From Aureispira anguillae (GTDB lineage Bacteria; Bacteroidota; Bacteroidia; Chitinophagales; Saprospiraceae): DNA of 64,000 nucleotides. Positions 1,001 through 61,699 of this stretch are shown piece after piece (position 1 is the stretch's first letter; each line of letters starts with the position of its first letter). Location of the stretch: positions 3,467,716 through 3,531,715 of the forward strand of contig NZ_AP026867.1 in the NCBI RefSeq assembly GCF_026000115.1. The letters are read 5' to 3'. Position numbers and translations under genes: made by a program. Under the pieces are notes generated by a model. It saw nothing but the letters and a program-made list of their open reading frames with translations. It did no database searches and had not been told where the DNA came from.

Positions 1001-1100
1001 AGTGTACATAAGTAATTTTTTAAGGGTGAATGGATCCATTTAATCGTTTATTTTTAGGGTATTAGAACAATCTCTAAATGTCATTAGTTCGACCATGCAG

Positions 1101-1229
1101 AACCCAGCTTGCTGGCTCACGAGCAATAACGAATCAACCACAGGTAGCTCATAGAGATTCGCTAACTTAGCTCCGCAGATAAAGGCAATGCTTTTTTGTC
1201 CTTTTTGTAAAAAAAAATCTACGGAGTAT
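1101..1229 (-). repeat. Mosaic intergenic repeat, copy G (minus orientation)
   Basis: On the minus strand 1120-1101 reads GTGAGCCAGCAAGCTGGGTT, identical to the core block of the copies near 56290 and 60360. The right edge at 1220-1229 carries the end-type motif CTACGGAGTA. The copy sits between the divergent genes starting at 1000 and 1298. A second TACTCCGTT motif lies at 1258-1266, so the region may hold two overlapping ends. Confidence 0.6.
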
Positions 1230-1297
1230 TAAAATATAATATTATACGTTTATATTAATACTCCGTTAATTTTTTTCATTAATTTTATCAACAGCTT

Positions 1298-2570: not shown

Positions 2571-2632
2571 TACGCTACCGTACGATTAGCTGCGCTGCTA
2601 CTTCGTACTCCGTTCAGATTTCCAATGGAGTA
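2571..2632 (+). repeat. Mosaic intergenic repeat, minimal copy H
   Basis: Contains GATTAGCTGCGCTGCTACT, a block also found near 56345 and, with small changes, near 49040 and 60286. It is followed by TACTCCGTT (2606-2614) and a close inverted partner CAATGGAGTA (2623-2632). The inner distance is only 8 bp, so this is the shortest end pair in the window. Confidence 0.6.
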
Positions 2633-2741
2633 ATGATCACTAGAATTGTTTAAAATGGTGTGTATTGCAATCATTTTAAGTAATTTTGTCAATGCTTCCG
2701 ATTGATCTACCAATTAACCCTTTAATAGCTTATAGTCACTT

Positions 2742-6284: not shown

Positions 6285-6320
6285 TGGATCGATTAATTGA
6301 TTGTTGGTAAATAAATTTAA

Positions 6321-6432
6321 TACTTCGTGGATTACTCCCTGCGGTCATGAGCGCTACGCTTAGTTCGTCCCTCATAGATCAGCAAGCTGGGTTCGTAAGG
6401 TCGCAAGCTCTGTTCGGGTTTCCCACGAAGTA
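6321..6432 (+). repeat. Mosaic intergenic repeat, copy D with TACTTCGTGG ends
   Basis: The 112-bp element is bounded by TACTTCGTGG (6321-6330) and its exact reverse complement CCACGAAGTA (6423-6432). Inside are GCTACGCTTAGTTCGTCCCTC (shared with copy A), CAGCAAGCTGGGTTC (shared with A, B, G) and GGTCGCAAGCTCTGTTCGG (shared with E). It lies upstream of the desaturase start at 6284 and downstream of the hpd terminator. Confidence 0.85.
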
Positions 6433-6456
6433 ATGCAAATTGGCTTCTGAGCAAAA

Positions 6457-23511: not shown

Positions 23512-23586
23512 GGTCCATTCGTCTATCGGCTAGGACGCCAGGTTTTCATCCTGGTAAGAGGGGTTCGATTCCCCTATGGACTACCA
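23512..23586 (+). tRNA. tRNA-Glu (TTC), copy 1
   Basis: The 75-nt gene folds into a cloverleaf. The anticodon stem CCAGG/CCTGG encloses loop TTTTCAT (anticodon TTC, Glu). The T arm GGGG-TTCGATT-CCCC is present. The acceptor stem GGTCCAT/ATGGACT has a G-T first pair. CCA is encoded (ACTACCA). Confidence 0.97.
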
Positions 23587-23621
23587 ATACATATTCTATT
23601 AATGAATAAAAGATTCATTTT

Positions 23622-23696
23622 GGTCCATTCGTCTATCGGCTAGGACGCCAGGTTTTCATCCTGGTAAGAGGGGTTCGATTCCCCTATGGACTACCA
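23622..23696 (+). tRNA. tRNA-Glu (TTC), copy 2
   Basis: Identical to copy 1 over all 75 nt, with encoded CCA. The 35-bp spacer before it ends with a small hairpin-like AATGAATAAAAGATTCATT. Confidence 0.97.
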
Positions 23697-23734
23697 AATA
23701 CATATTATAATTAATGAATTTAAGATTCATTTTT

Positions 23735-23809
23735 GGTCCATTCGTCTATCGGCTAGGACGCCAGGTTTTCATCCTGGTAAGAGGGGTTCGATTCCCCTAT
23801 GGACTACCA
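23735..23809 (+). tRNA. tRNA-Glu (TTC), copy 3
   Basis: Identical to copies 1 and 2, with encoded CCA. The preceding spacer is a 38-bp variant of the others. Confidence 0.97.
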
Positions 23810-23844
23810 ATACATATTCTATCAATGAATAAAAGATTCATTTT

Positions 23845-23916
23845 GGTCCATTCGTCTATCGGCTAGGACGCCAGGTTTTCATCCTGGTAAGAGGGGTTCG
23901 ATTCCCCTATGGACTA
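23845..23916 (+). tRNA. tRNA-Glu (TTC), copy 4, no encoded CCA
   Basis: Identical to the others through the discriminator base A at 23916. The following bases are CTC instead of CCA, so the 3' end must be made by the CCA-adding enzyme. It is followed at once by the terminator hairpin. Confidence 0.93.
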
Positions 23917-28662: not shown

Positions 28663-29050
28663 CTACATTTTTTTTGGAGTTTACAACCCGATTTTGCAAT
28701 TTTAGATAATAAATATTATATCGCTTCTTTTCTGATTTTTAAATAAAAAAAATTAGATCAACTAAACTAAATTACATTTTCTTCACTTTTATTAAATAAT
28801 CTACAAAATCAAGTTCTGAAAATTATTTTATTTTAAACTATAACTTTAATAATAGTTCAATTTATATGACATTTTGGAACTGACAGCTTGTCGAAAGGCA
28901 ATTTTGGCATTTCATCTGAACTATTGCAACTAGAATAGTTTAAACAAACTAAAGTAAAAATAAAAAAGGCAAGATAAAATAGAATTTATACTTAGCAGTC
29001 TCAACAAATTACTATAAAAGAAAATCATTTGTGCTAAGCATAAAAAGAAA

Positions 29051-48847: not shown

Positions 48848-49248
48848 ACAATGACTCTTATTTTATACCCTAAATCATCACTCCGTAAAAAAAATAAGAT
48901 TCTTTTACAACTCTATCACAAAATAAATGCTATGTGCTACAGTTTAATACTTCATTGGTTATCGGACTTTTAACACGCTAACTACAAAAACATATAATGC
49001 TAATAATCAACTGCGCAGCACTCATGCAATAATGTGATGCGATTAGCTTCGCTGCTTCTGCGTGGTTACTACGTGAGCCTTGTTACTCACTGTGTTTGTG
49101 AGGTCGCAAGCTCTGTTCGGATTGCCCACGAAGTAATGAGAGTTGTCAAAGAGCGAAAAATAAAACGTAAAATTTATAGAGGAAATCACCATTAGTTTCA
49201 AACTAATTCCACCTCTAATACTTATCAATAAATAAAATACAAATATTA
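48848..49248. other. 401-bp gap with mosaic repeat E
   Basis: Contains repeat copy E at 49007-49135 and otherwise AT-rich DNA; no coding frame. Confidence 0.6.
49007..49135 (+). repeat. Mosaic intergenic repeat, copy E with CCACGAAGTA right end
   Basis: Begins with AATCAACTGCGCAGCACTCATG, shared with the middle of copy A. It contains GTGGTTACTACGTGAGCCTTG and GGTCGCAAGCTCTGTTCGG (shared with A and D). It ends with CCACGAAGTA at 49126-49135, the same end as copy D. The left partner end is not seen, so this copy may be truncated. Confidence 0.8.
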
Positions 49249-56106: not shown

Positions 56107-56138
56107 ACTGTTCTTTTTATATTTTTTATTCCTTTTAA

Positions 56139-56453
56139 TACTCCGTTAATTAGCTAGTGCGCTAGCGCTTATGAGCTCCCTGAGGTCGGTTCGTTACACT
56201 CGTGAGATAGTTTTTTGATTACCAAACAACTAAGATTCAGAGTGGTAAAATTACATCATTTTAATAATCAACTGCGTAGCACTCATGAGCCAGCAAGCTG
56301 GGTTCTGCGTGGTTACTACGTGAGCCTTGTTACTCACTCTGTTTAGCTGCGCTGCTACTACGTGGTGTTACTAGTTCACTTTGTTCATGAAGTCGCTACG
56401 CTTAGTTCGTCCCTCGTGAGCCAGCAAGCTCTGTTCGGGTTTTCAACGGAGTA
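56139..56453 (+). repeat. Mosaic intergenic repeat, copy A (longest, 315 bp)
   Basis: Bounded by TACTCCGTT (56139-56147) and AACGGAGTA (56445-56453), exact inverted ends. Inside is a 47-bp block (56150-56196) identical to 60305-60351 in copy B. Other blocks are GTGGTTACTACGTGAGCCTTG (shared with E), GCTACGCTTAGTTCGTCCCTC (shared with D) and two GAGCCAGCAAGCT units. The right end is 6 bp from the stop of the GH-like gene. No open frame of note. Confidence 0.9.
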
Positions 56454-56459
56454 ATGCCT

Positions 56460-57566
56460 TTACAAAATAGCTTTTAATTTTATAAATACCTCTTTTTGTG
56501 CCACCGTTAAATCATCTGCTGTAAAAATACACATTCCTTTTGCGCCATTTTCTTTGGTAATCAGGATCGCTTGTTCCAATTCTTTAGGAGATCGCAGGGC
56601 AGGAGAATACAAACCTGCATGAATTGGAAAATCAACATCACGAACTCCTTGTTGCGTAGCAAAACCAATCCAATTGATGCTTTCTCTATAAAAATTATGA
56701 TACAACATTGGGTAAGCAGCGTTCAAGTTCCAATCGTTCCATGCTTGGCGAACCATTTGGCGAGACATTTCAGGAAAAGGGAAAACGGCTGCTGTTAACT
56801 CAATATTATGTTCTTTTGTAATAACAGCAATAGCATTGACCAATTCCGTGACCGCATTCAAACGATATTGTCGCCACTCTGTGCTCAATTCGGGGTGTTC
56901 CATCTCTATTGGGTCTTTTCCAAACAAAGCCTTAAATCCTGCTCTAGCAATTGGATGGTAACCATAATCATATTCTGGTAACTCTGTTTCTTGTTTAATT
57001 TTGTATTTGGGCTGCAAATCTGCCCCCAAAATAACATCCACATAACGCACATAATCTAAATGCACAGAAGCCAATCCCTCTACTTCACAATAAGATCGAA
57101 CCTTATCTTTGATGTATTCACAAGCATCGGGATGAAATGGGCTCAACCACTGATAGTAATCAACATAAGCCCGATATTCTAAAGAATGTTGACCATTTCG
57201 ATTGACCGCATACCACTCAGGATGTTGCTGCGTTTCTTTGTTTCCAGGTTGATTCAAGGTCCACATCCAAGCATGAACCTTCATGTTCATAGCAGTTGCC
57301 AAAGGAAGCAGCTTGGTCAAAAAATCAGGATTTCCCTGCACTAGCAACTCACTTATTCCTAAAGAATCATAGGTTTTAAGTCGCTGTTCCCAATCCACTT
57401 GGTCAAACTCCTTTTTGCCGTGCACCCAAGTCGAAAGTATAAAAGTACTGTCAACCACTTGCCTTTCATCTTCTACAACCTTCAATGGCTCAACGTCCCC
57501 TACCCTTTCTTTACAGGCAAAAACAATCATCAATATAAGACTGATAACAATTATAAAACCTTTCAT
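56460..57566 (-). CDS. GH10-like/GHL10 putative glycoside hydrolase lipoprotein
   Basis: The 368-residue protein has a lipobox (MIVFAC, Cys18). The mature part resembles the family 10-like (PF02638) hydrolases: MKVHAWMWTLN near 90, GLASVHLDYVRYVDVIL near 168, and an Asn/Glu-rich TIM-barrel pattern. Catalytic acids are likely in HLDYVRY and the later ELTAAVFPFPE region but I cannot assign them with certainty. It lies 29 bp after the CBM9-like gene on the same strand. Confidence 0.75.
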   Translation of the reverse strand: MKGFIIVISLILMIVFACKERVGDVEPLKVVEDERQVVDSTFILSTWVHGKKEFDQVDWEQRLKTYDSLGISELLVQGNPDFLTKLLPLATAMNMKVHAWMWTLNQPGNKETQQHPEWYAVNRNGQHSLEYRAYVDYYQWLSPFHPDACEYIKDKVRSYCEVEGLASVHLDYVRYVDVILGADLQPKYKIKQETELPEYDYGYHPIARAGFKALFGKDPIEMEHPELSTEWRQYRLNAVTELVNAIAVITKEHNIELTAAVFPFPEMSRQMVRQAWNDWNLNAAYPMLYHNFYRESINWIGFATQQGVRDVDFPIHAGLYSPALRSPKELEQAILITKENGAKGMCIFTADDLTVAQKEVFIKLKAIL

Positions 57567-57595
57567 AGCTTCCTATTATAATTCCTGATAAATTC

Positions 57596-58684
57596 TCATT
57601 GGAGGGATTTAAATCGCCCCATTTCATTAATAACAAATTCTTTTTCTAGTGTTTGATTATAAATATAAATTTCAAACCCTGAGTATGTTTTGACAAATTT
57701 TGCTTCAAAAATTTCATCTTTTAGATGAATGGATTGAATCTTTTGAGTTTGCCCGACCTTATTGTCCAACATTTTTTGGTGCGCTCCTAAGCGTATCTGT
57801 TCTAACAAAGCATAAGCAACCTGTTTGGTTAGCAAATTTTCAATCTCAATAGGGCTTTTTTTATGGGTCAGTTCATTATCCGTAAATTCAATATAGCCCC
57901 ATCGTTCGGGACAATGCATATTGATGGCTCCTTGGTTGGACCAAACCCAATTGTATTCAGGCAATAGTTTCCCATCTACTTTTTTTCGACTATAGCCACC
58001 ACTATCAATACTATGTTCCCACTGTACTCTCGAAAAATTTACCCGCCAATAGTCCCCTGCCTGTGGGCCTTTTACTTTTTTTCGTTTTTTTTGCAAAATC
58101 ACTTCTAAAGGAATAGCCATTTCAACAGCCCAATACTGATCCATATCGCTCGGATCATTGATGGTTCCTGCTATTTCAACAGCTGTTTTTAAGCCCTCTA
58201 TTTCATAATAATCATTGGCTTTACCTCCAAAACGATACGGCTTATCAAGTCTTAAATCCCAAGTAGTATTTAAGGCATTTACTTCTATTTCTGTATAATT
58301 ATAGGTGTCATCAGTGGGGTCTATAAACACCTCAAAATCATTGTTGTAAAAAATAATAGCGTCATGATTGGTTATATCGCCCCAAATGTGAGGTTCTTCC
58401 ATTTCTGCATATAGATATAAATACTGATCGTCCCAAAGCATTTTTACTTGAGTTTTATATTGGGGTACTTTTATTCCTTCTATATCTATAAATGGCTCTG
58501 TAAACGATGCATTTTGCCAATCCTCCTCCTCAGGTTTTCCATCAAGATTAATGGTATGCTTTGTTTTGTACACAATATAATGCTTAGGAAAAACTACCTT
58601 TTTGTGAACATCAATGAAAACGGGTTCTTCTATGGAAAAAATACAGCTTGTCAAGAGAAAGAACCCAATAATAGTTAGTCTCAT
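57596..58684 (-). CDS. CBM9-like carbohydrate-binding exported protein
   Basis: The 362-residue protein has a signal/lipoprotein-like N-terminus (GFFLLTSCIFS, Cys14). The core resembles CBM9-type domains (PF06452): INLDGKPEEEDWQNASF, QVKMLWDDQYLYLYAEMEEP and DIDPTDD-like acidic patches. It ends with a helical region. No catalytic motif is clear. It is co-directional with the GH-like lipoprotein, so the two probably act on one external glycan. Confidence 0.75.
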   Translation of the reverse strand: MRLTIIGFFLLTSCIFSIEEPVFIDVHKKVVFPKHYIVYKTKHTINLDGKPEEEDWQNASFTEPFIDIEGIKVPQYKTQVKMLWDDQYLYLYAEMEEPHIWGDITNHDAIIFYNNDFEVFIDPTDDTYNYTEIEVNALNTTWDLRLDKPYRFGGKANDYYEIEGLKTAVEIAGTINDPSDMDQYWAVEMAIPLEVILQKKRKKVKGPQAGDYWRVNFSRVQWEHSIDSGGYSRKKVDGKLLPEYNWVWSNQGAINMHCPERWGYIEFTDNELTHKKSPIEIENLLTKQVAYALLEQIRLGAHQKMLDNKVGQTQKIQSIHLKDEIFEAKFVKTYSGFEIYIYNQTLEKEFVINEMGRFKSLQ

Positions 58685-59106
58685 TTTTTTTAAAAGTAGG
58701 TATACGTAAAACTAATGATTGTAAATTTACATTTTTTTTGCAACTGACGACCTCTTCCCATGCTTCTCTAGTTACTACAAACCTTGGTAAATTTAACAAA
58801 CAATCAATACTACTTTAGTATTTTTTGTGCTCTAAAAGCAATTAGTGGGTTTTGAAAATAAAAAATAGCCCTAGATCAACTCTAGAACTATTCATTTATA
58901 AGTGAACGATTTTTTATAGTATCGATATTACTATGGAGGTTTACAAGGGGGCTATTCTTTTTTGTCTTTTGATATTATGCTTAGATTTGGAATGGTTGTC
59001 AATTCCATTTTTCAACCAACCATACTGCCTTTTTATGGGCAAATAGAAGTTCATTATAGATTCTAACTTTTTGAAGGAGGAGGAAGATTACCTCCTCCTT
59101 CAATCT
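58685..59106. other. 422-bp gap
   Basis: AT-rich, no coding frame. The only structure is a hairpin at 59073-59101 just after the MoeB-like stop. Confidence 0.55.
59073..59101 (-). terminator. Hairpin after the MoeB-like gene
   Basis: GAAGGAGGAGG pairs perfectly with CCTCCTCCTTC, 7-nt loop, 6 bp after the stop. It lacks a T-run on the minus strand, so factor-independent termination is uncertain. Confidence 0.5.
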
Positions 59107-60213
59107 CTAATTAAGAGCATTCCAGTTCTTAATTCCTCCTGTAAGATTTTTCAAATTAGTATAGCCCAATTGTTCTTGCAATTGCTGAATAGCAATTTTA
59201 CTACGAATTCCCTTTGCACAAATCACCACTACAGGCTTATTTTTAGGAATTTGATCCGCAGATAACAATAAACGAGGTAAAGGAATATTAATACCTGCTA
59301 ATTCGGTATAACGAGGTTGTTCCCACAATTCTCGAACATCCACAATCGTATAATTTGCTAGATCTTTTGCCAAGTCAGCGGCAGAGATTTCTATAATTTC
59401 AGTAGCTTGCTCCATTCCACAAAACAGTTGATAATTAGTTGTTTTAAATTCTTTTTCTAGTTCTTTTGTTTTTGTTATAACAGCGTGATTGGTATTGATA
59501 TTCAGCACCAAACTTTGAGTATTCAACGCATTATAAACCAATAGTTTTCCTGTTAGCACCTCCCCTAGTCCTAAGATGATTTTTAGTGCTTCATTTGCTT
59601 GCATTGCTCCAATAATTCCAGGCAAAACGCCCAATACTCCAACTTCTGAGCAATTGGGTACTTCGTTAGGTGCTGGAGGTTCTGGAAACAAACAACGATA
59701 ACTAGGTCCCTCTTTATAATTAAATACCGCAACCTGCCCTTCAAAGCGAAAAATAGAACCATAAACCAAGGGCTTATTCGTAATCACACAAGCATCATTC
59801 ACCATATAACGAGTCGCAAAATTATCAGTGCCATCTACTATAAGATCATATGCTCTAAATAGATCCAATGCATTCTCTGTTGTCAAAGCGTAGGGATATG
59901 CCTCAATACTGATGAAAGGATTTAGGTTTAATAAACGTTTCCTAGCTGCTAAAGCCTTATTGGTACCAACATCTTGTACGGTATAAAGAATTTGACGTTG
60001 CAAGTTGCTTTCTTCCAAAACATCCATGTCGATAACCCCCAATTTCCCAACTCCTGCTGCTGCCAAGTATTGCAACACAGGGCAACCCAAGCCTCCAGCC
60101 CCAATCACAAGCACCTTAGCTGCTTTCAGCTTTTTTTGACCACTTTCGCCAATATCCGATAACAATAAATGACGACTATATCTTGCTAATTCTTCTTTGG
60201 TTAAATTCATCAT
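59107..60213 (-). CDS. ThiF/MoeB-family adenylyltransferase with C-terminal rhodanese domain
   Basis: The 368-residue protein has an adenylating domain: GAGGLG at 38-43, DGTDNFATRY and CSEVGVLGVLPGIIGAMQAN with the family Cys. Residues about 265-368 are a rhodanese domain with C332 (VVICAKGIRS). Such proteins activate and thiolate a ubiquitin-like sulfur carrier (MoaD/ThiS). The usual zinc tetrad appears incomplete: GPSYRC has one Cys where CYRC is usual, and the later CxxC is absent. The carrier gene is not next to it. A repeat copy and -7 box lie upstream. Confidence 0.9.
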   Translation of the reverse strand: MMNLTKEELARYSRHLLLSDIGESGQKKLKAAKVLVIGAGGLGCPVLQYLAAAGVGKLGVIDMDVLEESNLQRQILYTVQDVGTNKALAARKRLLNLNPFISIEAYPYALTTENALDLFRAYDLIVDGTDNFATRYMVNDACVITNKPLVYGSIFRFEGQVAVFNYKEGPSYRCLFPEPPAPNEVPNCSEVGVLGVLPGIIGAMQANEALKIILGLGEVLTGKLLVYNALNTQSLVLNINTNHAVITKTKELEKEFKTTNYQLFCGMEQATEIIEISAADLAKDLANYTIVDVRELWEQPRYTELAGINIPLPRLLLSADQIPKNKPVVVICAKGIRSKIAIQQLQEQLGYTNLKNLTGGIKNWNALN

Positions 60214-60250
60214 CTCTATTTTAATAATAGTTATAGTTGTTGGGACCTAA

Positions 60251-60455
60251 TACTCCGTTAATTAGTTCGCTGTACTCTTGTATTCGATTAGCTTCGCTGC
60301 TAGGTTAGCTAGTGCGCTAGCGCTTATGAGCTCCCTGAGGTCGGTTCGTTATCACTCCTGAGCCAGCAAGCTGGGTTCTACATGGTTACTACGTGAGTCT
60401 TGTTACTCATTCTGTTTATGAGATCGCAAGCTCTGTTCTGATTTTAAACGGAGTA
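60251..60455 (+). repeat. Mosaic intergenic repeat, copy B
   Basis: 205 bp bounded by TACTCCGTT (60251-60259) and AACGGAGTA (60447-60455). It shares 47 bp exactly with copy A. Its last 38 bp (60418-60455) are identical to the last 38 bp of copy C. A minus-strand -7 box lies just outside, so it would sit in the leader of the MoeB-like gene. Confidence 0.9.
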
Positions 60456-60469
60456 AAGTCAGTACAGGA

Positions 60470-60477
60470 CAAACCTA
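60470..60477 (-). promoter_or_regulatory. Candidate -7 box upstream of the MoeB-like gene
   Basis: Minus strand TAGGTTTG fits TAnnTTTG. It lies 14 bp outside repeat B. No firm -33 element. Confidence 0.4.
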
Positions 60478-60636
60478 GTAATAGCTGACTATTCTGATTC
60501 TTTGATAACTTATAAATTAAAAGGCCAAGAATATCTATTTTCTCTGCAAAGATATAATCTTTAAGTAGAATATTTCGTTAGAATTAAATATCTACTCATT
60601 TTTTCATTCCTCGATCATCGAAACAACCACGCAACC

Positions 60637-61500
60637 ATGAAATTCATCCATCTTCTCAGTTTAATCTTAGTCTTCCCCACTCTACTTTTTGCTGCGGTTC
60701 CCCCAAAAGTAAAAACGCTTAGTTTGAACCATGCCATTCAACAAAAAATCATTAGTCTTAATAAGGTTAAATACATTGGTAAACAATCCCTCCAATTAAC
60801 CATTAAAAATATTCACAAAAGAAAAGACATTAAGATTCATTTCCCAACAGGTCTACAATTTGCTTCTAAGGATAGTTCGGAACAGGATCAAATTATCTTA
60901 CAAGAACGTATATTATTGGTTCGTGCGGGGAAAAGCATTAGCCCTAGCTTTGTTAGTTATTGTACACAATCAGACCATTTGAGTCCTGGATTAAACAGCG
61001 AATTTAAATTAAAAGAAAATGCCAATGGGCAACTCTTAGAACTTGCTCAATTTTTAGCAACCATCAAAGATAGTCAATACACCTCCCAACATGCTGTATG
61101 GGCAGTGACCAACGATCACGATTTAAAAGGCCTGCACCATAATGATTTCAAAACCGCCTTAAAAATCCAAAAATTTGTTGCGGATCTAACAGGGAAACCT
61201 TTACCGCAATATACCGTTCGCTATCGTGATGGCAGCGAGCGTCAAGTGGCGTTTACTGGCGAAACAATCCTCATTTATGGAAACCACCAGTACACACTTA
61301 GCCAAGATGCCTTGGTCACCTGCCAAATCTTTAACGAAGCAGGAGAAATGGTACAGGAAGTTTTTAAGGATATGAAACAAAAAAAAGGAAAAGTGCGCTT
61401 CAATTTTCACCTAAAAACAATGGACTTGCCCAAGGGAAAATACGTCTCAAAAGTGATTATTAATAACCAAACTTTTAAAGAACAATGGGTGGAGGCTTAA
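60637..61500 (+). CDS. Secreted protein of unknown function
   Basis: The 287-residue protein has a signal peptide (about 1-19, ending LLFAA). The mature part shows a beta-rich segment near 40-60 and a helical-looking part with THELRKENAN-like charged stretches; the C-terminal 90 residues resemble a small Ig-like domain with a K-G-K-Y motif (LPKGKYVSKVIINN), like a degraded sorting domain. The block FVSYCTQSDHLSPGLNSEFKL contains a single Cys. No known family. Confidence 0.65.
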   Translation: MKFIHLLSLILVFPTLLFAAVPPKVKTLSLNHAIQQKIISLNKVKYIGKQSLQLTIKNIHKRKDIKIHFPTGLQFASKDSSEQDQIILQERILLVRAGKSISPSFVSYCTQSDHLSPGLNSEFKLKENANGQLLELAQFLATIKDSQYTSQHAVWAVTNDHDLKGLHHNDFKTALKIQKFVADLTGKPLPQYTVRYRDGSERQVAFTGETILIYGNHQYTLSQDALVTCQIFNEAGEMVQEVFKDMKQKKGKVRFNFHLKTMDLPKGKYVSKVIINNQTFKEQWVEA

Positions 61501-61586
61501 TTTTAGCCCCAAGGCAAAAAATGTTATGATAATGATAAAAAATGTGGCAAAAGCAGTTCTTCCTTATAAATACTGGATTTAGTTTG

Positions 61587-61594
61587 TAAATTTG
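61587..61594 (+). promoter_or_regulatory. Candidate -7 box upstream of the SpoU gene
   Basis: TAAATTTG fits TAnnTTTG, 13 bp before repeat C, implying that repeat C is in the leader of the SpoU gene. Confidence 0.45.
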
Positions 61595-61607
61595 CATTTT
61601 AATATAA

Positions 61608-61673
61608 TACTCCGTTAAATTAGTTTGCTGTGCTCATGAGATCGCAAGCTCTGTTCTGATTTTAAACGGAGTA
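61608..61673 (+). repeat. Mosaic intergenic repeat, copy C (shortest complete, 66 bp)
   Basis: Bounded by TACTCCGTT (61608-61616) and AACGGAGTA (61665-61673). The last 38 bp are identical to the end of copy B. It lies 26 bp before the start of the SpoU gene. Confidence 0.9.
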
Positions 61674-61699
61674 ATGTTAATACAAAACCAGACTACAAA

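Follow-up and report, generated by a model that had tools for sequence, protein, structure and literature searches.

Repeat copies in the window

The window analysed here is a stretch of 64,000 nucleotides from the genome of Aureispira anguillae (G000, 7.79 Mb; contig NZ_AP026867.1). Between its genes lie copies of a mosaic repeat with inverted ends, and the repeat blocks and ends are those that an earlier note on this DNA had described. The repeats very probably form a family of miniature inverted-repeat transposable elements (MITEs) of a DDE insertion sequence (IS) with near-identical ends that occurs in the same genus. Their mosaic appearance results from the addition or exchange of hairpin modules of 18-36 nt, in most cases apparently with a duplication of TT. 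Both ends were identified in six window copies (A to E and the copy at 1082-1231), which are listed below with target-site duplications (TSDs) and further features of the family.

56136-56456, plus strand: copy A, a complete element that carries modules, between the ends TAATACTCCGTT / AACGGAGTAATG; exact 5-bp TSD CCTTT
56131-56135, no strand: left TSD of copy A, CCTTT; right repeat at 56457-56461
56345-56365, plus strand: hairpin module AGCTGCGCTGCTACTACGTGG within copy A; its class is also a polymorphic insertion in relatives
60248-60458, plus strand: copy B; matching ends, no TSD; right terminus AAG instead of ATG
61605-61676, plus strand: copy C, a short (72 bp) complete element; exact 6-bp TSD TTAATA
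61599-61604, no strand: left TSD of copy C, TTAATA; right repeat at 61677-61682
6318-6435, plus strand: copy D; end type TTCGTGG / CCACGAA; AAATT repeat offset by one base
48945-49138, plus strand: copy E; left end TAATACTTCATTGG; ends unmatched; TSD 5/6 (ACAGTT/AGAGTT)
1082-1231, minus strand: mixed-end copy; ends TAATACTCCGTAG and GAACTAATG; TSD 5/6 (ATATTT/ACATTT)
1256-1271, plus strand: lone left end TAATACTCCGTTAATT; a partner end was looked for and not found
2604-2635, plus strand: possible minimal hairpin copy, a candidate only; right end CAATGGAGTAATG, left end degenerate

The limits first given for copies A to D held with slight widening, those for E did not, its left end lying 62 bp outside, and the supposed partial copy at 1101-1229 turned out to be part of the two-ended minus-strand copy at 1082-1231. 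A 77-bp stretch at 28850-28926 (TAATAGTTCA...TGAACTATTG) has matching G-type ends and no TSD, and may be a chance match or an old copy.

Structure, insertion sites and distribution

Copies were counted in an own-genome sample consisting of the window and 100 evenly spaced 20-kb tiles (2.064 Mb, about a quarter of the genome), and reversed sequence served as control for pattern counts. Stem-paired candidates, defined as AATAC...GTAATG with at least 7 of 8 paired bases inside, numbered 37 in the 2.06 Mb against 6 in the reversed sequence. Of the 37, 29 carry a TSD with 5 or more of its 6 letters in agreement, and of the 6 none does; one of the 29, in L135, is unlike the family. The intact element is non-coding and about 146 bp long, T-AATACTCCGTTGA...TCAACGGAGTAAT-G, and is bracketed by a TSD of 5-7 bp, usually 6, so that the whole layout reads TSD-T-AATACTCCG...CGGAGTAAT-G-TSD. 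The top matches to a family model measured 145-147 bp in all five element-bearing genomes. Among 30 copies picked by model score, which include some orthologous pairs, an exact TSD of 5-7 bp was present in 28 of 29 assessable copies (20 six-bp, 5 five-bp, 3 seven-bp, 1 none; 1 further copy at a contig end).

As judged by crude calling of open reading frames (ORFs), 31 of 32 TSD-bearing copies in the own-genome sample are intergenic, or 46 of 48 when 16 from Aureispira sp. CCB-QB1 (G008) are included; the earlier statement that all copies lie between genes thus applies to almost all of them. Their gene contexts resemble the intergenic background, and no preferred gene orientation was evident. 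Short copies of 30, 32, 42 and 45 bp with a perfect 6-bp TSD were also found; in the same 3.31 Mb there were 6 hits of up to 75 bp with such a TSD, and the reversed control gave 0. The copies of 30-45 bp suggest that the ends alone may suffice for insertion, or that elements may shrink later.

Direct signs of mobility came from the comparison of G008 with strain G003 over four long matches (about 198 kb, 99.1-99.5% identity). For 2 of the 17 G008 elements under 700 bp in this shared stretch, G003 has a precise empty site with a single copy of the target (TSDs ACATAT and TAGTAA). The TSDs that the earlier note had proposed to look for are present in nearly all assessable copies and are accompanied by two empty sites. 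No whole element confined to G003 was identified there; the strain does have one insertion of 44 bp, matching in part, that G008 lacks.

With the family model scored on 150 candidates per genome, matches amounted to 96 in G000, 143 in the metagenome-assembled genome (MAG) HLG_WM_MAG_10 (G001), at least 150 in G003, at least 149 in the MAG B3_Bin_Bin_96_1 (G006) and at least 150 in G008; G001, G006 and G008 all belong to the genus Aureispira. A single mosaic family with tens to hundreds of copies had been predicted, and the model indicates about 100 or more per genome. The element was found in five of nine same-genus genomes; the model gave no match in the other four, nor in four genomes of the family. 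Among 79 genomes drawn from the order and searched with stricter filters, only G000 matched. One contig filed under Sulfurovum (L262) carries the Aureispira repeat; its metagenome series also yielded an Aureispira MAG, and the contig is possibly mis-binned.

A conserved three-helix fold

The element folds into three helices: the outer helix P1, which the ends form; P2, a hairpin rich in T; and P3, a long hairpin whose loop varies. The fold was tested on 22 copies from five genomes with 34 base pairs and 500 shuffles. In the alignment 95.2% of the cells pair, against 34-57% when the partners are slid by 1-3 columns. Changes on both sides occur at 9 of the 34 pairs (3 in P1, 6 in P3), a number reached by 2 of 500 shuffles, and involve 30 cells, which no shuffle reaches. 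The covariation score of 0.143 likewise exceeds all 500 shuffles (mean 0.047), and a smaller copy set agrees.

Selection on pairing, or else exchange of whole ends, had originally been deduced from the matched ends. Taken alone, matched ends do not prove selection on pairing, because a single transposase has to recognise both of them and they are passed on from copy to copy; the both-side changes in the inner helix P3 are stronger evidence. As P3 is not terminal, a transposase recognising both ends cannot alone account for its covariation. Compensatory changes maintain P3, so selection probably acts on a single strand or a cruciform. A strand test on P1 in the own genome counted 7 G-T against 5 A-C mismatches over the first 9 pairs, and 15 against 19 over 11 pairs.

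The strong fold and the compensatory changes in P1 and P3 would also be expected of structured RNA genes or regulatory RNAs kept for a host function. Such a role is highly improbable, considering the insertion polymorphism with TSD, the background-like gene contexts, the copies of 30-45 bp that lack the inner helices, and the absence of any Rfam family at gathering score. Rfam 15 detected four tRNAs only in the window at gathering level, and for the element in L165, searched up to an E value of 5, the best match had an E value of 0.12 and 21.5 of the 80 bits needed. The four tRNA genes stand in tandem at 23512-23916, where two 187-bp stretches are 99% identical.

P3 loops differ by 14-25% between score-picked copies of one genome (e.g. 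L165, L170, L176, L180, L186); between the orthologues L165 and L166, 2 of 146 sites differ. The P1 and P3 stems of the loop-divergent copies show no change in three genomes (G008, G003, G006) but do vary in G000; these copies are top-scoring ones, so intact stems are favoured. Hypermutation of the loop is not claimed, as transition/transversion ratios of 3.1-14 in the five genomes, from pairwise and non-independent comparisons, stand against 3.5 in the G003/G008 background. At L153:10276-10346 an isolated P3-like hairpin is flanked on both sides by the same module, and no P1 was seen in the 120 bases around it.

The probable partner insertion sequence and the matching of ends

An intact IS of 1365 bp is present in G008 (L330:1282-2646). 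It contains one ORF, encoding a DDE transposase of 429 amino acids that matches Pfam PF01609 (DDE_Tnp_1) with 30.5 bits (cut-off 23) and includes, by our reading, a YREK-like stretch. Its ends, CAATACTTCGTTGAAGTATT / AATACTTCAACGAAGTATTG, are near-identical to those of the MITE and are bracketed by the 6-bp TSD TTATGC; G003 has the empty site with one TTATGC. Each end (1282-1301, 2627-2646) is a palindrome of its own, AATACTTC GTT GAAGTATT, so that single ends can form hairpins too. The genome of the window carries a deleted relic of 597 bp (L350:1428-2024; ends CAATACTTCGTTGA / TAACGAACTATTG; TSD not clear). The proposed search for a transposase thus yielded an IS with matching ends in the genus, and its relic in A. 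anguillae itself. Family-like ends were found in two of three inspected homologues from other Bacteroidota: one from Persicobacter (39% amino acid identity; ends CAATACTCCGTAGA / TTTACGGAGTATTG, 7-bp repeat) and one from Parabacteroides (36%; 1477-bp circular record, ends CAATACTTCGGTAA / TTTAACGAACTATTG). The ends of IS, relic and homologues indicate that the MITE end types C/T, C/C and G/T (positions 6/8) are those of this IS family.

The repeats are thus short, non-coding and dispersed in many copies, have terminal inverted repeats and a TSD, and share near-identical, though not identical, ends with an autonomous element in the same hosts. The earlier opinion that they match no standard element is not supported, since these features are those of a MITE that belongs to a DDE insertion sequence. 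A structured single strand and copy-specific loops would be in keeping with mobility by way of RNA and reverse transcription, as in retrons, SINEs or group II introns. This route is scarcely credible in view of a TSD of nearly fixed length and the matching DDE IS; moreover, RVT_1 was not detected in three of the five element-bearing genomes (G001, G006, G008) and is present in two.

Other candidates for the partner were rejected. In an inspection of PF01609 loci that left aside the 427-aa and 468-aa families of G003 and three loci of G002, the ends proved different in four families of G003 (two of which have a copy in G008), and five single loci showed no P1-like motif. A search for long autonomous copies (up to 6 kb) in the tiles gave 31 end pairs with a 5-bp repeat, of which only L128 and L134 are long, neither with family-like ends on both sides. 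Two long candidates in 1.35 Mb of other loci were rejected on reading; the one that spans an N gap adjoins what is presumably a ProC-like gene, the other what we take to be an acetate kinase gene. A PDB sequence search with the transposase returned nothing meaningful. DDE_Tnp_1 matches number 42 in G003 versus 3 in the 99% identical G008, which may reflect a recent IS expansion or an assembly difference.

The two ends had been said to vary together. This was assessed on 107 copies with an exact 6-bp TSD and short terminal motifs (reversed control 7), comprising 19 from the own genome, 12 from G008 and 76 from contigs fetched by one right-end pattern, so that one end type is enriched. A CG core in both ends is present in 94 of the 107. 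In these, the two ends are identical at position 6 in 94 of 94 copies (shuffle maximum 82), at position 8 in 91 (77) and at position 12 in 90 (85); identity at position 13, in 78 of 94, is not above shuffling. Within the window, positions 4-12 match in A, B, C and D, and show 2 mismatches in E and 4 in the copy at 1082-1231, so that two of the six copies break the rule. Mixed ends also occur in the tiles (e.g. L051, L055, L059, L070), in the IS relic L350 and in the Parabacteroides IS.

Several observations speak against the interpretation given here. The NCBIfam IS models remain below their cut-offs (IS701_3 92.3 of 170 bits, IS4_1 46.8 of 115), the transposase is intact in only one of nine genomes searched, with relics in two, and it was not found in G001 and G003 despite their 143 and at least 150 model matches. 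MITE left ends start with TARTA versus CAATA at both IS ends, and the third inspected homologue, from Segatella, showed no bracketing inverted repeat within 350 bp. As to pairing, covariation support for P2 is nearly nil (one pair), the covariation of ends is weak inside a single genome (74 and 83 of 5000 shuffles reach the observed values), and by our reading about five independent changes lie behind the 94 copies.

The covariation of the ends is real but mainly a difference between subfamilies, and strong only across them; the earlier claim holds for the 94 copies as a set and loses force within one genome and in the copies with mixed ends. As the relic and the Parabacteroides IS each have two differing end types, the enzymes seem to tolerate mixtures. 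That MITE ends are matched despite such tolerance hints at pairing, judging from few IS.

Hairpin modules

Differences in modules were found between G003 and G008 in 7 of 15 shared elements. They concern hairpins of 34 or 36 nt (including TT), which follow P1 or lie in the P2 loop, a hairpin of 20 nt that is also in the P2 loop, and one of 22 nt that precedes the right end; one copy shows a swap and another a rearrangement. Three further cases, two at L141/L144 and one at the IS locus, all have the extra module in G008. Among the 13 indels of at least 8 nt in 200 kb of G003/G008 comparison, G003 has the additional letters in 11; the IS was not found in this strain and would hence seem unneeded for the modules, if these are gains. 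In eight of nine cases resolved by eye the module stands between two TT where the parent has one, an assignment that is ambiguous in T-runs, where TTA also fits; one case has a neighbouring substitution, and the ninth has one extra T. A module class with four variants, searched with a pattern that itself required TT on both sides, has 32 copies in G003, 26 in G008 and none in G000, G001 and G006. Over 28 contexts, variants are tied to position: GGGCGC stands after P1 in 19 of 19 cases and ATCGC in the P2 loop in 5 of 6.

It is moderately likely that ectopic gene conversion or recombination between MITEs is the only way in which modules spread, the first insertions being rare replication accidents at hairpins. 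The position bias argues for conversion, as does copy G8:56508, where a module was swapped and letters of P2 changed too; copy G8:1346, rearranged between the strains, is in line with this. The conversion tracts would, however, have to be short and to spare the P3 loop, twice in copy G8:165832, where G003 has added modules to the left and to the right of a P3 loop that is specific to this copy and has not changed. These two additions argue against conversion as the sole route.

They would be easier to reconcile with modules that are themselves micro-mobile elements of 18-36 bp, inserted with TT duplication by a separate activity that targets the T-rich loops and junctions of the MITEs. Where G003 and G008 differ in a module, the rest of the parent sequence is undisturbed, TT duplication fits eight of nine cases, and most extra letters occur in the strain where the IS was not found. 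We nevertheless regard such elements as rather unlikely: variants are tied to positions, the pattern expected from conversion or amplification of decorated copies, the swap in G8:56508 came with changed P2 letters, no enzyme is known, and the one module class is similarly frequent in both strains. More doubtful still is a two-tier non-coding mobile system, in which Y-shaped MITEs would be landing platforms for hairpin micro-elements of 18-36 bp that insert at unpaired TT with TT duplication by means of a separate putative enzyme, the mosaics growing while the fold stays intact.

For a MITE family mobilized by the partner IS, the IS transposase would bind the shared ends and insert the element in trans. 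A second process would add modules of 18-36 nt, mostly at TT in loops and junctions, and leave the three helices intact. Copies also exchange modules with one another, and in at least one case adjacent letters changed along with the module, as gene conversion would bring about. What goes beyond an ordinary MITE is the conserved fold and this traffic in hairpins.

Relation to known elements

Bacterial MITEs with IS partners include Nezha with ISNpu3-like elements and RUP with IS630-Spn1 (PMC3049150). The Aureispira element has in common with bacterial MITEs its short, AT-rich, non-coding sequence, inverted ends, TSD, paired fold and IS-like ends (PMC3049150); it differs in its TSD of about 6 bp, a three-helix core with a covarying inner helix, and polymorphic modules. 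The nearest models appear to be the BOX elements and, for the modules, the GC clusters of yeast mitochondria. Like the pneumococcal BOX (67-637 bp), the element is modular, with outer parts and a variable number of inner modules (PMC3049150). Compared by organisation, not sequence, BOX varies by tandem boxB copies, whereas the Aureispira element takes up different hairpins at several sites.

The modules resemble the yeast GC clusters, described as short palindromic mobile units that merge and shuffle and have a 2-nt target repeat, AG in yeast as against TT in eight of nine Aureispira cases, with the ambiguity in T-runs (PMC4478555). GC clusters differ in residing in an organelle and in being GC-rich, and the portion of the source consulted mentions no MITE or IS partner (PMC4478555). 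The Aureispira repeats may thus be regarded, by analogy, as a bacterial counterpart of these mitochondrial hairpin repeats.

Insertion of REPs and REPINs is not known to produce a target-site duplication, and the Aureispira element has one. REPINs are otherwise comparable, being small mobile hairpins that rely on a transposase acting in trans, the RAYT, which is a tyrosine (IS200-like) enzyme (PMC3116915); the Aureispira element has a TSD and a DDE partner. The small dispersed repeats of cyanobacteria (Elhai 2008, cited in PMC2884548 and PMC4390886) are similar in being about 20 bp long and possibly mobile.

A second palindromic family, GGTCGTAAGTCGTATG...CATACGACTTACGACC followed by CAAAAGTAGTAATAAG, occurs in the own genome (L088:2789, L076, L117, L138:817, L072), its core having 5 exact matches in 2.06 Mb.

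The Aureispira repeat was not described among the matches listed for Aureispira genomes and transposition, palindromic MITEs and REPINs, as far as titles and abstract openings tell and with subscription papers mostly outside. A formerly unexplained mosaic becomes a testable system, made up of one transposon family and two near-identical strains, with the IS found in one of them only. Since otherwise identical copies carry differing sets of modules, recent changes can be traced from a parent sequence that is exactly known. This addresses an old question, namely how micro-palindromes such as small dispersed repeats, GC clusters and the parts of BOX elements originate and spread.

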